Shown one piece after another: positions 467 to 40,882 of a stretch of DNA of 64,000 nt (position 1 is the first letter of the stretch; each line of letters starts with the position of its first letter). Under the pieces are notes generated by a model. That model saw only the letters and a list, made by a program, of their open reading frames with translations, was not told where the DNA came from and ran no database searches. Origin of the DNA: Clonostachys chloroleuca (lineage: Eukaryota > Ascomycota > Sordariomycetes > Hypocreales > Bionectriaceae). The stretch spans positions 1,054,001 through 1,118,000 of the forward strand of contig JBANAY010000003.1 of NCBI GenBank assembly GCA_037952775.1, given 5' to 3'. The position numbers were made by a program, and so were the translations under genes.

Positions 467-2330
467 TCAATCTAGCGAATCTACCCTAACCGATCTCCAT
501 TCCTGTGAAGCTAAGATGTATTCCCCTTCGAACACTGTTCGATCCACACCATTCTGTTTCTTGCTACAGGTCAGCTTCACCCTATCCAGAGGCTCTCCGA
601 GTAAGTCCATCTCAATTCCATGAATTCTGTAGCTTTCAGGTATATTGGGAAGCACTAAGTCTTGTTCTTGTGGACAGCGTAGGAGCGGAAAGTTGTCCAA
701 ACCACCCAGTGACCCTTTGTAAAACCCACCCTCTTCTAGCTCGATCACCTTGCGAACCACACAGACGGACAGCTTAGAGTCCCAGATACCTTCTTGATGT
801 TGCGAGGTCGAAAGAAGTCGCATCGCTTGGGTTCGGATCTGATGTACGCGGCATTTGGTCGCGGCATAGAAGAGAGGTGCAATCCAACCCATGTCAATGA
901 TGGACAGGTGTCTGAAGACGAAGTTACCCATCGATATCTGCTTGTCATTCAAATCCGGTGTTGTTTTCAACAAAGTTATGCCATTCTGTATGAGAGTGAG
1001 GAACTTGGTTGTTTGCAGATCGTACGCTAACTCGTCGTAGGGAGAAATGCAGGTAGCGGTCATGATTTCTGCCATTGTGTAGTATTGAAGGATGAGCAAA
1101 TATAATTTGGTTCGCTGATCACCTCTCGGAGTTTCCGTTCGGATAATATCCAATGAGAGATCGTAGATCCTGAGCCATTGTGATAGGTCGGCGCGGTTGT
1201 GTTCCTGGCGCGCTTTCAAGGCATCAGTGCTGATCAAAAGAGCACTTCCGGCGTCGTGCTCCGCTCGGGCCTGATTCGAAATCTCAATGGCCCGATCAAG
1301 AAGCTGTCCCAGATATTGCCAGGCCTCGTTGGTTGAGTTAAAGCGAGTGCTGGGTAGTGGCCCTCGTAGGCTCACCGGAAAATCAAAGCAGGGCCGTGGA
1401 CGGCCTTGGTGGAATAGCCTGAACTGCAATCTCAACCTCGTAAACATTTCGGCGATCCAACCATCCAGCATCTTGGCTCGAGGTTGATGTACGGCAGGCA
1501 CTGCTGATAGCGACTCTTGAGCTTCGGCCAGGACCTTCAATCCATTATCCATGTGGCGGTGTGCAGTCTCAAAATGGCCACGAAGGAGCTCTAAACAGAT
1601 GAAGATGACGCATCCTATCAGCGAAACATGAAGAGAGGCTCGTCCCGTGGCGTTCAGGTGGTACTGAAGGTGGCGGATGGCCTTGGTATAGTGCCGCAGA
1701 GTGATGACCTCTTGCGAGGATGCGGTGTTGTCGCTCAGGGTGGGTGTTCGGTGCACTGTGCCCAATGCAAGAACAGCATGAAGAACAGAGGGCTCCGTCG
1801 AAGCGGCCTGGAAGACCAGCTTCGTCCAGAATCCGGTGACGAATGTGCCCGGCAACTTTGGGGCGGAGCGATGCCTGAACCACTCGAAGCGAGCTTTATC
1901 ACCTGCATCGAGGAGGACGGGATAATGGCATGCCGGTGAGTATAAGGGGCCAATGATAGAGCCATAGCCGGGCTTGCTGTTTCCTGGCAGAGGAGGTAGA
2001 CGTGAGCGAGGATTTATCGTGCTACATGCAACCCCGGGCTTCCCGCCAGCTCCTCCTCCACCCCAGATACCATACCCCTCGCATGTGCGTCCGGTTGACA
2101 TGCATCGATGGCAAACTGGAAAGCTTTCGTCGCATTTGACCTTTCGGATCCTATCTACCGATTAGTGAGCCCGAGGGGCGCGCCCACCAAGCGATGGAAG
2201 GGATGGGGTGATAAGGGGCTGGAGACGTTGGGTTTTCAACTCACCTACAAGTATGGCAGCCGGATTTCACTTTCCGTTTGCCCGTGTAGTGCTTACCCTT
2301 CGATCCGGGCAGTCTTAGTTCCTGTCCCAT
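467..2330 (-). CDS. Zn2Cys6 fungal transcription factor
   Basis: Two exons, complement(467..2150, 2245..2330), 589 aa. The intron of 94 nt (donor GTGAGT, acceptor ATAG) falls inside the zinc cluster. Exon 1 starts MGQEL and ends GCHTCR; exon 2 resumes IRKVKCDE. Together they give a full C-x2-C-x6-C-x6-C-x2-C-x6-C binuclear zinc cluster at about residues 24-51. The remainder is the helical fungal-specific regulatory region (for example the segment ALGTVHRT near residue 150), as in the DUF3468/Fungal_trans_2 group. Starting at the first ATG of exon 2 (2101) would lose five of the six zinc cysteines, so the spliced start is preferred. It is divergent from the aldo/keto reductase across about 610 bp and may regulate it. 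Confidence 0.88.
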
Positions 2331-2944
2331 TGCTAAGATCCAGTCCTTCCACTGAACGGCGAGGGAGATGGAGCATCGATGCGTGATGGTGTTACAAAAT
2401 TACTCCTGAAGTCCTGTTTATTCTTCAGCTGATATTCAAGTGGGGGCAAGAAAGGATCATTTGCATCATCCACCACGGCCTAAAGTGACCCCTGCTTTAT
2501 TCGCCAGCTCGGACATGCCATGCCCTGATTGGCCTGGAACTTGATCGAGCAAGCAGGGATCATCCTCCACTTCGCAATTTAGATCGTATGGATCCATCTC
2601 CAAGTATCCCAACTTGAATACCACTCCTCCGTACGGATGATGTAGGCATGCGATATCTCCGGTGAAACCAATACAACTCGTTTGAAGATGGCTTCGGGTG
2701 CTTCCTAATCCCTTTAAAACCGAGAAATCGGGTACATTATACGAATGACATGAGCCACGTCACAAACAGCCAAGTGCTGAGTAAAAAAGTATATAAGGAC
2801 AGCGATTCCTGCTTCATCTATAGGGAGAATAACTCATCAACAAGCCTCCCGCTTGCTATTGTGCCACTACCACCAATAAAAAGATTTATTCTCTTTTCAA
2901 CACTCCATAATTGCATATTCATCCCTACTTCATCTCCAGCCACG
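2331..2944. promoter_or_regulatory. Divergent promoter, regulator / AKR
   Basis: The 614-bp region between the divergent regulator and reductase genes. A TATA-like TATATAAG lies at 2790-2797, about 155 nt upstream of the reductase ATG. A near-palindrome TCCGTACGGA lies at about 2628-2637; its right part with the following bases (CGTACGGATGA) recurs at 4360-4370, just downstream of the reductase. CGG/CCG half-sites are the usual targets of Zn2Cys6 proteins, so this is a candidate operator (inference). Confidence 0.45.
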
Positions 2945-4213
2945 ATGCCTACCTTCTCGAAGCTCCGTCAACTTGGCAAGAACGGACCCCTTGTGTCTGC
3001 CATAGGTTTTGGCCAGATGGCACTTGGGACCGACTTCTATGGAGCAATTCCGTCTGATGAAGAGCGTTTCGCTGTCATGGATCGTGCCCATGAGCTGGGT
3101 ATGACCATGTGGGACAGCGCTGAGTAAGTACCCCTTCTGATAAGATCTCGTGGCTGCAAACGAAATCGTCGCCCACGCCTCCTCACTACGTGGAATATGA
3201 GTCTAAGTTGTATCGCAGTATTTATGGAGATAGTGAAGAATTGATGGGAAAGTGGTTCAAGCGGACTGGGAAGCGTGATGACATCTTCGTGGTGACCAAG
3301 TTTGGCTTCGTCAAAGGCCACGATCACACTAAGGGCCCTAAGTATGATACTTCCGCTGCCTATACTAGGGAAGCCTGCCTTGAGAGTCTGCGCGTTCTCG
3401 GTATAGACTCTATCGACCTTTGTAAGGCAATTTGCACACTTGTTTGTGTTGTCAAGATGCTAACGTCCATCTGTCTGTTTCAGACTATGTGCACCATGCC
3501 AGTCCCGTGACACCAATCGAGGAGACAATGAGAGAATTGGTCAAACTACAATCGTAAGTTTTAGATCCAATATCTCGCCATCTCGCAAATTTCCCTTGAT
3601 TTCACTGACTGATTCCTTAAAGCGAGGGGAAAATCAAGCATATTGGGCTCTCAGGTGTTTCCTCAACCACATTGCGTAGGGCCTACAAAATAGCGCCAGT
3701 GGCAGCCGTCCAGACAGAATACTCAGTGTTTGCCCGTGAAATCGAGAGCGACAAGGGTACTGATCTTCTTGCCACTGCTCGCGAGCTCGGTGTTGCCGTC
3801 GTCGTGCATTCCCCCTCGGGCGAGGCATACTCACCTCGAACTTTGGCGCTGGTGAGCCGGCGAGTGACAGCAAGGATAGGCGCCACAAGTTCTTCCCCTG
3901 GTTTTCAGAAGAACATCGCGAGAACAATATCAAGGTTGTGGGTCAGTTCAAAGCCTTGGCCGAGAAGAAGGGCTGCACCACTTCGCAGCTGGCTCTTGCA
4001 TGGCTCCTCAAACAGGGTGATGATATCATTCCCATACCGGGCACAAAGAAGATCAAGTACCTCGAGGAGAACTGGGCGACTCTCAATGTCGAACTTTCTG
4101 ATCCTGAAGTGGCGGAGATTGGACATTTTGGCGAAACGGCTGGCATTGGAGGAGACAATAAGATTGCCGCACACAAAGATCACTACTTTGCCAACACTGT
4201 GGAGGAGTCCTAG
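2945..4213 (+). CDS. Aldo/keto reductase (AKR), one-base frame break
   Basis: NADPH-dependent aldo/keto reductase. Exons 2945..3123, 3219..3421, 3484..3553 and 3623..4213, all with good GT...AG ends. The AKR tetrad is visible: Asp in WDSAD followed by Tyr in IYGDSE, Lys in VVTKFG, His in YVHHA. C-terminal cofactor-binding motif is IPIPGTKK. Within exon 4 the frame is lost at the CCCCC run 3811-3815; one further C would join HSP to the downstream LGRGILTSNF frame, which continues to the TAG at 4211-4213. No intron can bridge the break because protein-like sequence runs up to it on both sides. As written the gene is frameshifted; a sequencing or assembly indel is the likelier cause, real loss the alternative. 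Family length (about 330 aa) would be normal. Confidence 0.85.
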
Positions 4214-4792
4214 GTACGGAAGAGAAAGAAAATAGAGTTTAACAACAACGAAGCTGCCAGGGCCCGACAACTCAACGCAATGAATACGAAAGCTTAAAAA
4301 TATACCCTTTCCTAGTCCGCCCAAGATGTAGTCATACGAAGGAAAATTCCATGAACCTTCGTACGGATGACTCAACTTGCCGTCAGGGGAGGATTTGCCT
4401 CTGAGATTATGATTTGTGCTAGGAGCGAGCTAGATCACGGACAACGGGGGGTAGTTTCAGTAACTCTAGTCTTACCCAAATCACCAACAGTATGCGTCAA
4501 GGACGTGGCCTTTCACCAGAGCGTCTAGATGATTAGCTGAAATCCTGGCAGTTAATAGAGGCCATAGGGTGATCCGGGACTTCATAGGGTAAAGAACGAG
4601 CTGTATCTATGTCAAACACGTTACGTGTACCAAAACTCCAGAAACCCCCGAGTGAACCTTCGGTTTTATTTTCGAGTATCTTAAACCCCCTACAACAATC
4701 AGACGTTGAACTCTTATGTACTAGAAAACATATCCGCTATCATAATCCTCGGCAATCGGCGATTGAGCAAAAAGGTGAGGACACAATGATAC
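4214..4792. other. Intergenic with a short dispersed repeat
   Basis: The region between two convergent genes. It contains about 38 nt (4221-4258, beginning agagaaagaaaatagag) that recurs with few changes at 7996-8036, and the CGTACGGATGA copy at 4360-4370. I see no gene. Confidence 0.45.
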
Positions 4793-5706
4793 TCACAGCT
4801 TCCCCAAGGCCGGCGCAGGCACTAGCTCCAGATCCTGGTGCGGGAGATCTAGAAAATCCCACATGTAATGAAATCTGTCACTTCCAAAGAAGGGCTCAGC
4901 TTTCCCCTTGCCATCATGCACCCAGAACCAAGGACACCCATACGCGCCTAAAGTCTCCGCAGTATGCTTTGTTACATCATTCAACTTCTTCTTGACATCC
5001 GGACCTTGGGAATCTTTAAGAATTTTAGGCGCTTGCTCGGCGCCGAAGACAGCTTGCAGGACCGCAAGCATGTTTTCCGGCTTGGAAAGATCCTTGTGGT
5101 CGAGCCACAGGGCCTGGAAGCATGCTTTGTGCAGGGCGTCGTACTGTTCCGTATATGCTTCCTTGACAAGGGTGAGGCATCTTTGCGGCTATTCACGTTG
5201 AGTGAGTGGCAAAGGCACACGTAACATGGGAACACAAGATATACGTACCAGTAAAGACAGGAAGGGAAAAAACTCTGGAACTTTGAACCTCAATCCGAAG
5301 TACTTCTGCGCTCGCTTAATATCATACGGCGAGTAGGCGGACTTGGCGGCGAGAGCCATAGGTGGCTTGTTACCTGTCTCAATTTTCAGAGAGAGGAGGC
5401 CAGCCATACATCAACTGGGGGGATCTCTTACCCGAACTCGCCATAATTCCACCTAGGAATACCGGGATGAATCTAGTGAGCCACGGTTAGAAAGCTGATA
5501 TCTTATCGCACATATAGTGGCCCTTACTCTACTTCGACATTCAGATCTTCAAGTGCCTGTCTGCGTTGAGAGAGGTATGAATACGCGAGGAAGCTATAAG
5601 GAGAGACTGCGTCATGGAAATGTCAGAAGGGCGTGCTTGATGTTCTTTTGCAAGGGCACTCACCACAGTCGAGATACGCCTCGATCTTTTTCTTATGAGG
5701 AGCCAT
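4793..5706 (-). CDS. Kappa-class GST / DsbA-like thioredoxin-fold protein
   Basis: Five exons, complement(4793..5188, 5249..5373, 5432..5472, 5528..5606, 5664..5706), 227 aa, all introns 55-60 nt with GT...AG. The protein begins MAPHKKKIEAYLDCVSPYSF: a thioredoxin-fold strand followed by the SPYS motif whose serine activates glutathione in kappa GSTs. The middle segment NKPPMALAAK and the C-terminal FGSDRFHYM also fit the GSTK/2-hydroxychromene-2-carboxylate isomerase family, and the length is normal (about 220 aa). Expected role: glutathione conjugation or isomerisation in mitochondria or peroxisomes. It sits tail to tail with the aldo/keto reductase and head to head with an SDR, consistent with a detoxification group. 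Intact. Confidence 0.9.
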
Positions 5707-6053
5707 CTTGTCTGTTACTGAGTTCTGTCGTTATATGTCAAGGGTCTATTAACACAGAATGGCTGAGCACATCCAATTGATTGAAAGGGTGAGATGACAA
5801 CATCACATGTATTTATCGCGTCTTCGGTTCCCCTTAAGTTTTAGCCGAGGCGCGACCCCAGACTTGCCAGAATAGTGGTTTATGTAATACAAAACAGGGA
5901 TCGTCCGAGCCAATCTCTGCCGCTTGTGCCAGTCTGCCGTGGCTCGCTTCATTCCAATTGCGGGGCTTCTTCCTTCATCTCACACCGGGTCGGCGGCTCG
6001 GGATGTCCTCCTACCGCATCTATCTGTTCTGGCTTACTTAAGGATGAGAAAAT
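5707..6053. promoter_or_regulatory. Divergent promoter, GSTK / SDR
   Basis: 347 bp shared by the divergent GSTK and SDR genes; it should hold both 5' UTRs. No clear operator was recognised. Confidence 0.4.
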
Positions 6054-7160
6054 ATGAGCAAGCCATCGGATCTGGTTGCTCTTGTAGTTGGGGCTTCTCG
6101 TGGAATCGGTCGCCAGATAGCCATCGACCTTGCGAGACATGGATATCGAGGTAAGCAATCATTCCCTGATCATAGGCTAGAGGCGGAGAACTGACAGCGA
6201 CATTTCAGTGGTTGTGGCAGCTAAGACAGTCAGTGATGCCACCAAACAAACTACCCCTTTCCCGCCCGATCCCAACTCCAATGAATCGACCATCACTACC
6301 GTCGTTCGCGAAATCGAGGAGGCTGGCGGAGAAGCGGTAGCCTTTCAGGTTGATACAAGAGACCCCGAGTCTGTCAAGAACATGGTTGATTTCACATCGA
6401 AGTACTATGGTTCTTTGGATGTGATTGTTTATAATTCCGGCGCAGTATGGTGGTCGTCAGTGGAGAAGACGTCGATGAAACGGTTCAAGTTACTTCAAGA
6501 TGTGAATATCAATGGTCTCTACGCGACCATACAAGCTGCAATGCCTCACTGGCAACAGAACGAGTGGAAGGGGCGGATCATTGTGGTTAGCCCGCCCATC
6601 TATTCGCGCTTCTTCCGAGGCAAGACAGCATACGCCGCTATCAAGGTCGGGATGTCTGTGCTCACAAAAGGGCTTGCAATGGACTGGAAGCGAGAGGGCA
6701 AATCGAACATGGCCATCTCGTCTATATGGCCCGCAGTGGTTGGTGCTCATGCTCCATCTCGCTTGACACGATTATGAAACTCACAGTCAGCAGGGGATTC
6801 AATCAGCTGCGACGCCAAACGTCAGGCTTTTGCCTGACCTTAGAAAGGCTGTGAGTAAAGCCTTTATCCAATGTTATGAAATAACCTTCGAAGGCTGATC
6901 CAGTTACAGACAATATTCTCCGATGCCATTTTGGAGATGCTTCGAGCTCCAGCGGATGAGATTAACGGCCGTCTAGAAGTAGACGAAGATTTCCTGCGTG
7001 CGAGAGGTGTCCAGGATTTTCCAAATACAGCGTAGTCCCTGGATCGACGCCAAGAAGGATGCTACCTGTCCAGTTTCCGGATCTACGAGTCGCCGAGGAG
7101 GATGATGAAGGATTGCGCATGGACAGCACGGATGCTGGACATCGGGAACACAAGCTCTAA
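6054..7160 (+). CDS. HSDL2-like short-chain dehydrogenase, frame break near C-terminus
   Basis: Exons 6054..6150, 6209..6738, 6794..6850 and 6910..7160. The N-terminal Rossmann motif is GASRGIG. The catalytic Tyr-Lys is YAAIK, with a candidate serine in VVSPPIY. The insertion between strand 2 and helix C (PFPPDP, then EIEEAGGEAVAF) is typical of the HSDL2-like SDR group. Intron 2 is my choice of CAGTG|GTTGGT to CAG|GGGATT, because it restores the conserved IWPAV...QSAATP segment; its donor is weak. In exon 4 a stop (TAG at about 7036) follows a TTTT run (7017-7020). One more T would continue the frame to a TAA at 7158-7160 through a polar C-terminal tail. The truncated version would still hold the full catalytic domain. 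Confidence 0.8.
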
Positions 7161-7547
7161 TTGTCTCGCTATTCTTCAACGCCTCTGCTTAGGTTCAAAT
7201 TGAGTTAAGAAACAGCTGAATCAAAACAATCTCAACCCAGACACAACATGTATTGAGTCGACATGACAGTAGAATGACCCAGACAGTCTTTCCTCCCATT
7301 TGCCGATTTGGGTATATTGTCCTGCCATTGGATTTTTGGACAACTCGCAAGCAGGCTGAACATAAACTCCATGCTACAACAAGGGAATGTCTGCCCCCAA
7401 GAAACCAAGTAAAGATCTGCGTGTGACATGGAGACTCTACTAGCCCTTAAATCAAACTTCAAAACGGAATACATTGCACCTTACTTCAACCTTCGACATG
7501 AAAGCATTCTCATTCAGCCTTGCTTCGCCTCTTTCCTACTTGACATC
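7161..7547. other. Intergenic, nothing recognised
   Basis: About 390 bp between convergent genes. Only short random ORFs; probably the two 3' UTRs. Confidence 0.45.
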
Positions 7548-30052: not shown

Positions 30053-32722
30053 CTACCCTTTCATGGATTTAAAAGGCCATGCAATGAGGTTCAGAGCCTG
30101 GAGCGGATCATCCCCAATCCCATGATTATCCTCCCACATCAAGTCGGGCGAGAGAATCTTGACACCATTCCGATCACGGCAAAGATGCGTCAAGAGTTTT
30201 CGCATGCCCCTGGTCCGTCGTATCTCGAACTCATGAACACGGCCAAGCCATGTCTCCTTGGTTTGCGGATCCCATACATTCGTCATATTGAGAAACCCAA
30301 GGATAATTGCGGCCATACCCACAGCAATGGGAGTTGACACCGAGGTCCCGCTCATCTTACGAAAGCCGCCTCCCAGGTTGGTTGGCCACTGGCTCCAGAC
30401 TTCTTCCCCAGGTGCCACAAACATGGGGAAGTCCGGGCTCGGTTGAGGAGCAAATGGTGATAACTTTTGAAACTTGTCGCCGGAGGAAACACATATGGCG
30501 AGGTCTGGACTACGCGCCGGCCAGGCAATGGCATTATTGTTACCGTGGTTTGCGGCGGCGGCGAACACGATGATACCGTTCGCATTGACAGCATCGTCCA
30601 GAGCCCGGGTTAATTCATAAGACCCTAACTGCGAGAATCCCAATGAAAGGTTGATGATATCCACCTTCTGCTCTATCGCCCATCTTATTGCCTAGGAGGT
30701 CAAATCAGACAATCATTTTCCAACGCCGCAAGAAGTCCTGGGTCCAGGGTTGTTTACTTACCTCTTCCACGGGACGGCGAGACTTTCGCTTGGCTGCTTT
30801 TGAAGAGGCTTTTCTGGTTTGCTGGGCCTCGGAAATCTCCTTGCCGGTACTCACTTTAGCGATATACAGTTCTGCCCGGGGAGCAACAGCCATGATCAAC
30901 CCGGCAATGTGTGTTCCGTGGCCAAATTCATCAGTGACGTCGTTTTCCTCCCCAGGTTCGCCGACAAAATTCCGAACGGCAACAATTCTCTCGCGTTGGG
31001 TCTTCTCGGGGATGCCCTTTGCCCTCTTGCGTCCGATCTTAGTTCTCCTCCTTGCGGGCTTGGCGAAATCTTCGTGGCCGAGATCTACACCCGTATCTAA
31101 CACTGCGATCTTGACGGGGCCATTCCAGTGGAAGCCGGAATTTATCGTGGCTTCGTCATCATCAGGCGTCCATTGGATTCTGTTGTACCATGTTTCCTCC
31201 AGAGTTGCAAAGAAATTGTCAAGATATGCGTCTCTATCGGCTAGTTAGTATCACGAGCTTCGTGGCGGGTATGCATGTAAACTCACTTCTCCGGGGCCGA
31301 TGCCGAATCAGTTGTTATGCTTGCATCAGTCAGTGCAAACATTTCGCCTATTCATGTTAGTCCCTCGTTAATACTCTTCTAGATATGATGAGGCTTGCCT
31401 TGGACCTGCTTTACTTCTTCGCTTAAACTTGGGGACGGTGTCCTTCGCGGGCTCTTTGGGGGTTTCAGCATCCCCGTGTCCTTTGTGTCCGTTCTCCCCT
31501 GCCGCGTTTCCCCGCCAGCCTCCAAGTTCAAAGATTCCATTGCAATGTTCTGGTTTGGCGGGTTTGTCTTCTCCTGACCGGCTTGCGAAGGGGGGACAAA
31601 TCGGACTGCGAGCCGCAACGCCGTTTGGCGATGGCCATGTGTCCGAGCAAGCTGTAGGGCAGTCTCCCCTGCGTCATTGGTGATATCGCGATTTGCCCCC
31701 TTATCAAGCAGTAACTGGACTATTTCAGTCTTGTCAAACCTCGCTGCGAACATCAACGGCGTCCAGCCCTCGTTGTTCAGGCAGTCCACCTCTGCCCCGT
31801 GCTGCAAAAGCATCTGGACGCACTTCTCCAGCCCATGTCTTGCCGCCCTGTGAAGCGGGTGCCATCCTCGAGGGCTCGCTGCCTCTACCGCGTACGGGTC
31901 AGCGTGCAGCAGATATGCGACGGCCATTTCCAGGTTCTTGTCGATTGCCCAGTGGATGGCCTGACCTATGTGAGTTGGAACTTCTTCCTTCCTGGGATAT
32001 TCCTGGAGGAATACGTTGTGGTTACTCTTAGCCTTGGCACAGGAGAACACGTGGTCGAATCTTCTTCTCTCGGTTGTCGATAGGTTTTCAAGGAGTCTCT
32101 TGGCTGTGATCCCCTCTTTATTCCTCGTCGTCGCGGACGCCCCGTGGAACAGGAGAAGAGCAGCACACGGGATACTTCGAGCCCTGACGGCGAAATGCAG
32201 AGGCGTGTCGCCATTCGCAGACGCGGCGTTCGGATCAGCTCCGCTCAAGAGCAGCTTCAAGGTCGTCTGCGCCGACCACAGCTGCGCGGCCACATGGAGT
32301 GCCGTGATCTCTCCTCCGCCCTTCTCCCTCTCGTCGGGCGCCGTCTTCGCATGAACATCAGCCCCGTTCTTCAGCAGCGTGCTCACCACTTCGCGCCTGT
32401 TGTCGGCGGCGGCGAAGATCAATGCCGTCCACTTGAACGGGCTCCTTGAGTCCACTTGGGCGCCTTTGGCGAGCAGCTGCGCGACGATCTGGTGCAGTCC
32501 CAGCTGAGCCGCGTTCTGGATTGGAGTGCGATTTCTTTTGCGGCCGTCTTTGTCTCGTGCATCACGGCAGTCCTCGGGGTATAAATCGAGAAGCTCCCCT
32601 ACAATAGCGGAATTGTTCTTCAAAACAGCTCGATGTATGGCCGTCGCTCGGTCCTTGTTCCGCTTCTCAAGATCCAGGCCATTCTCCTTGAGGAATTTCT
32701 GGAGCTCGGCAGAAGCGGCCAT
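30053..32722 (-). CDS. Ankyrin-repeat subtilisin-like (S8) protease
   Basis: Four exons, complement(30053..30691, 30762..31233, 31287..31347, 31399..32722), 831 aa, intact. Residues 1-370 hold about nine ankyrin repeats (for example TPIQNAAQLGLHQIVAQLL, TALIFAAADNRREVV, HPLHRAARHGLEKCVQ, TPLMFAARFDKTEIV). A polar proline-rich linker spans about 370-460. The S8 domain follows: Asp in VLDTGVD (about 508), His in FGHGTHIAG (about 567), oxyanion Asn in AAANHGNN (about 667), Ser in MSGTSVSTP (about 736). There is no signal peptide, so it is probably cytosolic. Intron 1 uses a GC donor (CAAG|GCAAGC), needed to keep the frame. No NB-ARC or NACHT domain is seen. Its ATG lies 366 bp from the divergent gasdermin-like gene; HET-Q2 of Podospora is the known precedent for a subtilisin-like partner. 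Substrate assignment to the neighbour is inference. Confidence 0.88.
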
Positions 32723-33088
32723 TTCTTGATTTGTTTGTTTGCTTCTTCAAGGAGAGTGATGCCTCGTCGCGAATCTGTGGGTAGGAGGGGATTATTGTGA
32801 GCTTACATGCATCATGCATGATTAGTCGGCTCAGACTGTAGGGCTCATGACGCCATTGGACACATGCAAGAGCCCCCTCTCTCATCTAGCCAGTGATATG
32901 TCAGAATCGGTTTGGTCATTATCGAAAATCCCGGTTGGCAGCAGCTTACGCCCCCGCCGTGAGCGAATTCGTCCAAATACCCGACCCTAATTGAGATCTT
33001 GCTTGGCTTCAACCAAAATACCGGCAGCTGTTCCATCTCGTTCCCAAGACTTCGGGGTTCTGCTATCCGCCATCAACAAGAGGGAACG
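32723..33088. promoter_or_regulatory. Shared promoter of the protease-gasdermin pair
   Basis: 366 bp between the two divergent start codons, short enough for one bidirectional promoter. It contains a 15-nt inverted repeat (32806-32820, arms CATGCAT/ATGCATG around one C) and a CCCCT stress-type element at about 32873-32877. Co-expression of the two genes is inference. Confidence 0.5.
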
Positions 33089-33954
33089 ATGAGTTTCGGA
33101 GACACCACGAAGAAGTACTGGATCGTTCCCTCAGCGACTCTTGCCCCCGAGGATCTGGTCCTCGGAACCGTCCTGAGGAAGCCAAATAACGTGATCGATA
33201 CTCTGAATCGCAATGCTGTTGAGCCCATCGAGATCGCCCATATCATCCATGAGAAGGAGCAGGTGAAGAAGAGTATCGGCAACGCCTTCGAGGTGGGATT
33301 CGGCGCCGAGCTTGGGGCGTCCTCGGCCCTGGCAGCCATCATAGGAGGGGCACCAACAATAGGGGGAATTGGAAGAATGGGATTTCCGACTCCATTGAAG
33401 CGACCCAAATCCGGGCTACGCATTTCTCACCTACGGCGGATTACGTGAACAGGGCGCTGCAGACGCCGGAGATCAAGGCCTATGTGCGCCAGTCCTTCTT
33501 CACTACGCCTGTTTACATGGTCGTTGGAGTAGCGGTCGCGAGCTCCGTCGAGAGAGAGTTCACTAGGTCCAAAAGTAAGGACGGAAAGGTTGGAGCGGAC
33601 GTTGGCATCGCGGGTACTGGCTTGGATGTCTCGGCTTCTGTGTCTGCAAATCGAGGGACAGAGCAGAAGTACGGTGATAAGGTAGAGGGGGATGTCGTTC
33701 TAGCGTATCGAGCTCGCCGGTTCAGGTATTCGAGGAGGAAAGAGGTCTTTGTGAGGAATAGTGAAGATGAGAAAAAGCATGGGAAATATAGCACAGATCA
33801 GGATGAGGAGCAGAACAAGGATGGCGACGACGACTACGACGACGACGAGGATGACGAGAACGAGTTTGCCGAGTTTTCTTACTTTGAGCAAAACGATGTT
33901 TCGGCCACAGAGGCTGGCGTGGCAGGTTTTGAAGAGGACAATGAGAGCGAATAG
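33089..33954 (+). CDS. Gasdermin-like (RCD-1/HET-Q1 family) cell-death protein, one-base frame break
   Basis: One exon, two overlapping frames, about 288 codons in all, close to the usual fungal gasdermin length. The N-terminus (KKYWIVPS, then DLVLGTVL and a following LNRNAVEPI) matches the pattern I associate with fungal gasdermin-like proteins. Next comes an amphipathic small-residue segment (GFGAELGASSALAAIIGG), and in the second half beta-rich sequence (VYMVVGVAVASSVERE) with alternating hydrophobic residues, as in pore-forming strands. The C-terminal 55-60 residues are highly acidic (aspartate-rich run at about 33802-33870). The frame changes at the GGGGG run 33362-33366; no GT lies in the window 33340-33400, so an intron does not explain it. 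Family proteins act at the plasma membrane after losing an inhibitory tail. Assignment is by pattern and by the protease neighbour, without a search. Confidence 0.72.
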
Positions 33955-38467: not shown

Positions 38468-39985
38468 ATGATTGCAAAGGCACTCGTTGCATCCATCGCG
38501 CTGGCCGCCTCAGTCTCAGCACAGACTTTCACCGACTGCAATCCCCTTGAGAAGGGTAAATGGCCATATACATGAACAATGCCTCTGGACTGTAGAAAAC
38601 TAACATGATGAATCAGATTGCCCTGCTGCTGCTGCCTTGGGCACCCAGTCAATCGACTGTGACTTGACACAGGGTGCATGCGCTGGCTTCAATGTTCTGG
38701 AGGGTACCACCTTGACCTACGATTCCAAGGGCGCTCTTTTCTCTATTGAGAACGACAAGCAAGCACCTACCATCGCTAGCAGCAGGTACATTTTCTTCGG
38801 TCGCCTCGAGGTGGTCGCCCAAGCCGCCCCTGGCCGTGGCCTGGTCACTTCCATCGTGCTTCAGTCTGCCGATCTTGACGAGATCGACTGGGAATGGCTC
38901 GGTTATGACGAGGTCAACGTTCAAACCAACTACTTCGGCAAGGGAGATACCACCGTCTACGACCGCGGCGCCTTCCACAAGGTCTCTGCGCCCCTGACCA
39001 CTTTCCATACCTACACCATCGAGTGGACTGCTTCCAAGCTAGACTGGATCATCGATGGCCAGGTCGTCCGAACTCTCAACTACGCCGATGCCGCCAGCGG
39101 CACTCGCTACCCCCAGACGCCTATGCAGGTGAAGCTGGGTACCTGGGTTGCAGGTCTTCCCGGAAACAGCCAGGGCACCATCGACTGGGCCGGTGGTCTT
39201 ACCGACTTCTCCCAGGCTCCCTTCAACGCTTGGTACAAGTCCATCAAGGTCGTCGACTATGCTGGTGGTTCCGCCGCTCCCACCGAGAGCATCCGCGAGT
39301 ACCAGTACGGCGACAGGACCGGTTCCTGGGAGAGCATCGTCATCGTTAAGGGCGAGCCCATCCCTCTCTCCTCCGCCATCACCACCCCCGGAGCGTCCAC
39401 CCCCGTCAGCACGAACACGCCGGCGTCTTCGTACACACACACCGGACCCTTCAACTCGTCCTTCGTCGCCCATCCCACCCCGACCGGCGGCGACTTCACC
39501 ACCTCGACCGTCTACGGCACCACCGTCTACGTCACCTCGTGCGCTCCCACCGTCACCAACTGCCCTGCCGGCGGCTCGACCAAGGTGACCGAGACCATCG
39601 CCATCTCCACCACCGTCTGCCCTATCGGCACCGGAAGCAGCCACGTCTCCTCCCATCCCAGCGCCACGAGCGGAAACTCGCCCCAGCAGCCCTCCAGCAG
39701 CGGCATCAGCGTGACCAGCGGCAACTCCCCCAGCTGCCCTCGGCCACAACCGGTCCCGCCAGCCCGAGCCACACCTCTGCCAACTCTCCCAACAAGCCTT
39801 CCTCCAGCACGCCCTCTGGCCTCATCACCGCCACGTCCGCCTCGCCCGTGCCCTCGCACCCGCACAGCAACTCCACCGCCAGCATCACGTCGCCCTCTGC
39901 CGTTCCCACCGCTGGGGCTGCGCAGTTCGTCGGCAGCCTCTCCTTGGCGGCTGGTGTTGCCGCCGCAGTTGTGTTGTTTGTATAA
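38468..39985 (+). CDS. CRH-type GPI-anchored GH16 transglycosylase, frame break in Ser/Thr tail
   Basis: Exons 38468..38555 and 38617..39985. The signal peptide is MIAKALVASIALAASVSA. The GH16 catalytic motif DEIDWEW (nucleophile and acid/base Glu) sits near residue 115, and VQTNYFGKG follows as in Crh1/Utr2 chitin-glucan transglycosylases. A Ser/Thr/Pro-rich linker then leads to a hydrophobic C-terminus (SLSLAAGVAAAVVLFV) of GPI-signal type. The GPI tail is in a different frame: one more C in the CCCCC run 39727-39731 joins them. As written, the protein would run into a different 80-residue tail ending at 39992 and lose the GPI signal. The enzyme cross-links chitin to beta-glucan in the cell wall. 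Family conservation makes an assembly indel the likelier explanation. Confidence 0.9.
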
Positions 39986-40882
39986 AGAATAATGAGAAGG
40001 GAATGGAATGGAACGGGGAACAATGGGATATAGAGAAAGGGAATCTTCTTGTTCATGGGAACAACTGGTTAAAAGGGTTTATACAAGTAACGCCGGTCTT
40101 CGTTACTTCTTTACATAAATTCACAAAGTAAAAAAAGTAAAACACAATGTTCATATCGACTTAACCATACATGTTCTTCGTTTCCCGATTTGCTTGTCTT
40201 ATTCAACTTTGGAAATTACAGTTGAGGCGTTCTTGCCAGTGATACTTGGATCAATGGACAAGATTACGCCAGGAAACGTAGTGGTCTAGCTTGGCATGTG
40301 GGATTTCGACAATGATGCGCTCGAGCTCTGGGTTGAGATGGAACTCTCGTGCGGGAAAAATTGGGTGTTTCCGGAATCGGCTGCGGAGAATGTAGGAAAA
40401 AGTGAGTTGGCTTGCACAATGAGGTCACCCATAAGAGATACCGCTGAGGGCGTCAGACCTTGCAATCAATCCATTGTGACTTGGTCAGGGAGCTGCGCAG
40501 GACGGATAGTAACAGACCATGCGGTGAGATCCACGTCGATTATGCTCGTTCATTCAGACAATTATATTGTATGGTTAAGGATAGGTATGTGACTGGTATA
40601 CACTTTGAAACTTCATTATATCGTTCATCAAAAGAGAAAGGAAAGCAAACAGTACAACCACCATAGATTCATTAGTTCTTCTTCCGACTACTTCCAGCTT
40701 GCGCGGGTATACTCTCCAAACCGCCAGGGTATCTTGTTGAGCATGCTGCTCGATGGTTTCACATTTCCAATATAGCATTCCAGCGTGCAGAGGATATCAA
40801 AACTCAGCTCAACGTCAAATAGTCTTTGAACAGGCAAGCGAGTCTAATCTCAACGTGCGCGCGACAATCTGATGCAGTGCCT
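39986..40882. other. Convergent intergenic region
   Basis: About 900 bp between the 3' ends of the CRH-type and MARVEL genes. The first part is AT-rich 3' UTR; short ORFs around 40296-40592 are not convincing. Confidence 0.4.

Follow-up and report, generated by a model that had tools for sequence, protein, structure and literature searches.

Back-to-back genes for an ankyrin-S8 protease and a gasdermin in Clonostachys chloroleuca and the predicted proteolytic removal of the gasdermin tail

Which proteins are encoded by two genes that lie back to back in the genome of Clonostachys chloroleuca, and do they act on one another? Both are found within a stretch of 64,000 nucleotides (hereafter "the window"; positions 1054001-1118000 of contig JBANAY010000003.1, abbreviated C3) belonging to an assembly of 59.4 Mb in 4 contigs. 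The minus-strand gene codes for a subtilisin-like (S8) protease equipped with ankyrin repeats, the plus-strand gene for a gasdermin. The genes are divergent, and their start codons are separated by a shared upstream region of 366 bp (32723..33088), exactly as stated in an original prediction made from the DNA letters alone. We consider it probable that the protease cuts off a short C-terminal tail of the gasdermin, whereupon the rest of the gasdermin would open pores and the cell would likely die. Judged from sequence comparison, the pair itself is real and well supported; it is spread over several hypocrealean genera and ordinary in kind.

The protease and the gasdermin

The protease gene (30053..32722, minus strand) comprises four exons encoding 831 residues. 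Exon 1 (31399..32722), which starts with the ATG at 32722, contains the ankyrin array (residues ~25-385) and a Ser/Pro-rich linker. It is followed by a GC-AG intron of 51 nt (31348..31398), across which the frame agrees with that of relatives, and by the short exon 2 (31287..31347). After a second intron of 53 nt (31286-31234), exon 3 (30762..31233) opens the S8 domain and provides Asp508 and His567, while exon 4 (30053..30691), separated from it by an intron of 70 nt (30761-30692), supplies the remainder of this domain with Asn667 and Ser736 as well as the stop codon, which ends at 30053. Similarity to relatives extends across the exon joins; at intron 1, the join is supported by an RTPSP...GELYALTDA-like stretch present in several of them. 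Other splice choices led to internal stops, of which the GC-AG model is free. Pfam assigns Ank_2 (E 4.7e-46) and, at residues 502-764, Peptidase_S8 (E 4.1e-31). Of 19 aligned sequences (window included), all share Asp508, Asn667 and Ser736, and 18 share His567, the exception being P0030, which has Arg; from the S8 motifs we take these four columns to be catalytic. The intact minus-strand S8 protease with an ankyrin array put forward in the original prediction thus stands. Mean pairwise identity among 16 full-length proteins amounts to 66.4% for the S8 domain and 52.5% for the ankyrin region, hence the ankyrin repeats are conserved, but less so than the enzyme. The C. rhizophaga protease is 97% identical over the S8 part (among the matches listed, the best 120 of 313). 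Its public model (P0016, 771 residues) is devoid of the Ser/Pro-rich linker beside the GC-AG intron, which several other relatives retain. A further protein, P0045, combines a patatin domain (PF01734) with an S8 domain related to that of the window protease and possibly represents another architecture.

The gasdermin gene is read in two open frames. The frame of the ATG at 33089 (33089..33448, plus strand) encodes ~90 N-terminal residues of the pore-forming domain, then runs out of frame and closes at a stop at 33446, while the remainder of the protein is contained in a second frame (33253..33954, plus strand), homologous from ~33370 onward. The original prediction had assumed a single open reading frame and overlooked the break. 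The protein is continuous across this region in 14 aligned relatives, although it must be borne in mind that database proteins are open frames by nature, so that broken copies elsewhere would escape notice. An intron joining both frames was rejected, as the sequence that it would remove is part of the protein in the 14 relatives. For both reasons we conclude that the window carries one single frame break, located between ~33355 and ~33380, where a short homopolymer run occurs.

The second frame alone matches HET-Q1 with an E value of 2.7e-8, and a profile built from 14 relatives matches, among solved fungal gasdermins, the HET-Q1 pore (E 5.1e-21) and RCD-1-2 (E 3.5e-8). Over the part searched, the window gene is 94% identical to its C. 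byssicola counterpart (P0001, residues 42-168) and 90% to that of C. rosea; row P0007 among the gasdermin matches is the window's own second frame. For the fold comparison a model was built on the intact P0001 with an alignment of 37 sequences, the broken copy of the window not itself being folded; an earlier prediction from 14 sequences, with a mean predicted local distance difference test score (pLDDT) of 43.2, was not used. The best fold matches of the P0001 model are RCD-1 and bacterial and animal gasdermins. The original prediction had suggested precisely these profile and structure comparisons and had named absent gasdermin similarity as evidence against itself; both searches are positive: on the strength of the profiles the window gene belongs to the fungal gasdermin family, and the model of its intact relative shows the gasdermin fold. 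Pfam alone misses it, since the window frame yields no match at E 0.1 and P0001 only one match below threshold. The Purpureocillium lavendulum gasdermin P0004 is publicly named a dynamin family protein, which is probably a misannotation.

The gasdermin tail and the linkage of both genes

The C-terminal tail was aligned for 37 of the 39 gasdermin rows, P0159 (208 residues) and P0160 (179 residues), both from short contigs, being left out. These 37 relatives measure 275-326 residues, with a short tail of 60-111 residues behind an RYS/QYS motif. In P0001 numbering the tail consists of a conserved stretch that ends at residue 235 (mean pairwise identity 52%), an acidic linker of variable sequence (236-260, 28.5%; 33790..33861 in the window) and a second conserved segment (261-283, 56%; EFAEFSYF...D...GF at 33862..33930), whose conservation is close to that of pore-domain residues 61-100 (56.6%). 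This non-acidic segment, which the original prediction had overlooked, carries the motif [FLY][ST][YFR]FxxxD in 37/37 relatives and an invariant F281. In the P0001 model residues 262-270 are drawn as a strand; the mean pLDDT is 57 for residues 261-270 and 70 for residues 271-280, compared with 31-38 for the blocks of the linker. Immediately before the linker, 36/37 relatives have Tyr or Phe at column 234; at column 221, 34/37 have Phe. According to the relevant passage of PMC10989679, HET-Q1 is cut after F238 and thereby loses 40 residues. Extrapolation of our profile alignment, which ends before F238, places this residue near column 239, for which reason column 234 (Tyr codon 33787..33789, the predicted P1 position) was chosen as the likely site by analogy, with column 221 as the alternative. 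The expected location of the cut in the tail, proposed from the outset, is thus retained, while the site itself is shifted from the acidic stretch to the conserved aromatic residue just in front of it.

We picture the protease as inactive at first; once its ankyrin repeats encounter a ligand or a modified protein of the cell, it would cut the gasdermin after the conserved Tyr/Phe. In the window, this cut would free 54 residues (6.2 kDa) including the conserved FSYF...D...GF segment, which we predict to act as an inhibitory plug. The N-terminal domain thus released would oligomerise in the plasma membrane and form pores. As a whole, this predicted mechanism appears likely. More tentatively, and with less than an even chance in our view, the pair may form a sensor-executioner unit that is ancient and has been passed on vertically within the Hypocreales. 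In it the gasdermin would be silenced by a conserved aromatic plug on an acidic linker, which the ankyrin-S8 protease would remove by one cut after Tyr/Phe in response to a conserved, non-polymorphic trigger, so that it would serve a pyroptosis-like response instead of allorecognition.

The arrangement was followed through related genomes by recording whether the gasdermin and the ankyrin-S8 protein of one assembly are found on longest contigs of identical length. Rows are one representative per 90% cluster; for the gasdermins, the 7997 candidates sharing most words were scored, and the ankyrin-S8 proteins comprise the best 120 of 313 matches, the closest 18 rows being P0016-P0033. By this measure the pair is located on one contig in nine other hypocrealean assemblies (9 of the 21 gasdermin rows compared, from a total of 39, and 9 of the 18 closest ankyrin-S8 rows), namely in Purpureocillium lavendulum, Conoideocrella luteorostrata, Fusarium sp. 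MPI-SDFR-AT-0072, F. austroafricanum, F. torreyae, F. lateritium, Fusarium sp. NRRL 66182, Stachybotrys elegans and Moelleriella libera. Four of the nine pairs bear consecutive locus tags (C. luteorostrata 7927/7928, F. torreyae 3432/3433, F. lateritium 6279/6280, NRRL 66182 2943/2944). Among the rows compared we saw no same-species pair split over different contigs of one assembly; the Ustilaginoidea virens rows and one F. lateritium row stem, by their locus-tag prefixes, from different assemblies. Orthologues unlinked in all related genomes, which would have spoken against the original prediction, are consequently not what is found.

Within the C. chloroleuca genome a single-protein search revealed five gasdermin-like places at E <=1, the window included. 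L008 (C3:6042013) has an S8 gene directly upstream on the same strand (within C3:6035000-6043500, DUF7580-S8 open reading frames at local positions 4233-6167 and the gasdermin at 6696-7481). L009 (C3:18672793, local 4288-5124) is full-length, and its closest solved relative is RCD-1-2 (E 3.7e-5). L010 (C3:6054430, local 4326-4700) is a fragment which resembles the L008 copy 12 kb away and lies beside a gene of the tyrosine phosphatase family. L011 (C3:1385328) is a weak fragment (E 0.22) convergent with a DUF7580-S8 gene (C3:1379500-1389400, local 2237-6067); a further DUF7580 plus S8 match is present ~13 kb from it (C3:1367669-1369780). Three of the five matches have an S8 match within 3 kb, for which random placement of the 52 merged S8 loci with a 10-kb radius gives a chance of 5e-5; as these three include the window itself and the E 0.22 fragment, which is backed only by its neighbour, and as a fragment 12 kb from another copy is also among the five, we give this figure little weight. 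The two other full-length copies are divided, one having an S8 neighbour and one not. Elsewhere in the window, between 38001 and 42000, the GC skew changes from -0.19 to +0.20 around an open reading frame for a GH16 glycosyl hydrolase (38604-39992).

The frame break and alternative explanations

To judge the broken gasdermin frame, the same genome was searched for chaperonin (PF00118) and HSP70 (PF00012) genes, giving ~21 loci as counted by eye. At two loci, L012 (a gene for a CCT subunit) and L013 (an HSP70 gene), the frame shifts beside a homopolymer run without room for an intron; detailed reading was confined to these two, so that two out of 21 is a lower bound and no measured rate. L012, which we recognise as CCT epsilon, is single-copy (next best genome match 42% identical), and CCT epsilon is essential in yeast. 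L013, a paralogue that has diverged (49% identity to its next best match), is the weaker control. Since both genes break at homopolymer runs without an intron, the assembly very likely carries indel errors, and since the gasdermin break likewise occurs at such a run, it cannot be read as gene loss. It is either an assembly error or a loss specific to this strain, whose effector copy is accordingly uncertain. We regard it as rather unlikely that the locus is a decayed relic with a real break, a lost gasdermin effector and a protease left without substrate. The two frames are admittedly plain in the sequence while 14 relatives are continuous, two other gasdermin-like matches of the genome (L010, L011) look like fragments, and the HSP70 control could itself be decayed. 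Yet the single-copy CCT gene shows the same kind of break, and the gasdermin reading is otherwise conserved: apart from its 94% identity to C. byssicola, it contains no further stop before its end and has kept the tail motif.

A different objection is that the two genes share nothing but their upstream region, the protease having other targets and the gasdermin being activated otherwise, for instance by the mixing of allelic partners as in RCD-1. In support of this, L009 is a gasdermin of the same genome without an S8 or CHAT neighbour. It is nevertheless improbable in view of the nine assemblies with both genes on one contig, of the tail, whose position resembles the HET-Q1 arrangement, of the higher score of the window family against HET-Q1 than against RCD-1, and of the second gasdermin, L008, which also lies beside an S8 gene. 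Still less do we expect an allorecognition (heterokaryon incompatibility) locus in which strains differ in the active partner. HET-Q1 and HET-Q2 do act in incompatibility, as stated in passages of PMC12881547 and PMC10989679, but unlike the het-Q idiomorphs both partners share a single chromosome in the window genome and a single contig in each of the nine other assemblies, and from genus to genus the ankyrin region remains fairly well conserved.

With proteolytic removal of the tail as the preferred reading, several observations nevertheless weigh against it. Besides the broken frame, owing to which the strain may lack the effector, the confidence of the P0001 model is moderate, 134 of its 288 residues falling below a pLDDT of 50, and the cut site was placed by extrapolation past the end of the HET-Q1 alignment. 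Near the full-length gasdermin L009 the searches, which covered the protease classes S8 and CHAT, gave no match, which indicates that protease linkage is not obligatory. Twelve of the 21 gasdermin rows have no same-contig ankyrin-S8 partner among the matches listed (120 of 313), although, being representatives of 90% clusters, these rows, like the nine unpaired of the 18 ankyrin-S8 rows, are uninformative and were not counted as negative; the Thelonectria olida gasdermin may be a true orphan. The identity matrices of both families agree closely (r 0.93, a value reached by 0 of 5000 permutations). Joint inheritance of the pair would lead to this, but shared species history produces such agreement equally well. 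Finally, closeness and a shared upstream region are no proof of an enzyme-substrate relation.

Comparison with known systems

Our literature searches retrieved no paper on gasdermin in Clonostachys and no title on the window pair, which does not prove their absence from print. The description of the tail as plug and linker and the predicted cut site do not occur in the passages of PMC12881547 and PMC10989679 consulted, and we claim no priority for them. What the present analysis adds is a series of ankyrin-protease/gasdermin pairs from the Hypocreales that is supported by sequence and for which a specific cut site and plug are predicted. If inherited by descent and non-polymorphic, the pair would offer a way to ask, for example in Clonostachys, for roles of fungal gasdermins outside heterokaryon incompatibility. 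It also illustrates that a single frame break is insufficient to call a gasdermin dead where the assembly breaks a single-copy chaperonin gene as well.

The published systems are considered here as far as the passages of both articles describe them. HET-Q1 (278 residues) falls within the length range of the 37 relatives, and it shares with them the short C-terminal tail and the S8 protease partner. The original prediction had HET-Q2 encoded next door to HET-Q1; het-Q1 and het-Q2 of Podospora are, however, idiomorphs, i.e. different genes at the same locus (PMC12881547), and HET-Q2 has 388 residues (PMC12881547, PMC10989679), whereas the window genes stand side by side in one genome and their protease carries ankyrins. 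RCD-1 of Neurospora crassa differs in that it is controlled by the co-existence of two allelic variants and not by proteolysis (PMC12881547). Inside the C. chloroleuca genome, L008 and L011 likewise combine an S8 domain with a gasdermin-like neighbour, but there DUF7580 replaces the ankyrins before the S8 domain, and neither arrangement is divergent: the L008 genes share one orientation, and at L011 the S8 gene converges with a weak fragment.

The closest likeness is to the Q2-like protease/gasdermin clusters (Clave et al. 2022, via PMC12881547 and PMC10989679). Most fungal gasdermin genes (~ or >80%) are clustered with protease genes, ~60% of these proteases belong to the S8 class, and the protease domain is commonly accompanied by ANK, TPR and WD40 repeats (PMC12881547, PMC10989679). 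As in such clusters, the window protease gene has a fungal gasdermin gene less than 10 kb away and encodes a Peptidase_S8 domain with its catalytic residues (Asp508, His567, Ser736). No difference in kind is apparent from these passages: the window pair is the ANK-S8 version, found in Clonostachys and other Hypocreales and divergent in the window. In a two-gene cluster of P. anserina, the protease is reported from tests to activate its gasdermin, but it is a TPR-bearing CHAT protease (PMC12881547) in place of an ANK-S8 protein. This TPR-CHAT/gasdermin cluster is a closer tested precedent than het-Q, and because ANK-bearing proteases clustered with fungal gasdermins are reported in the reviews, the window pair represents a further case of an already described pairing.

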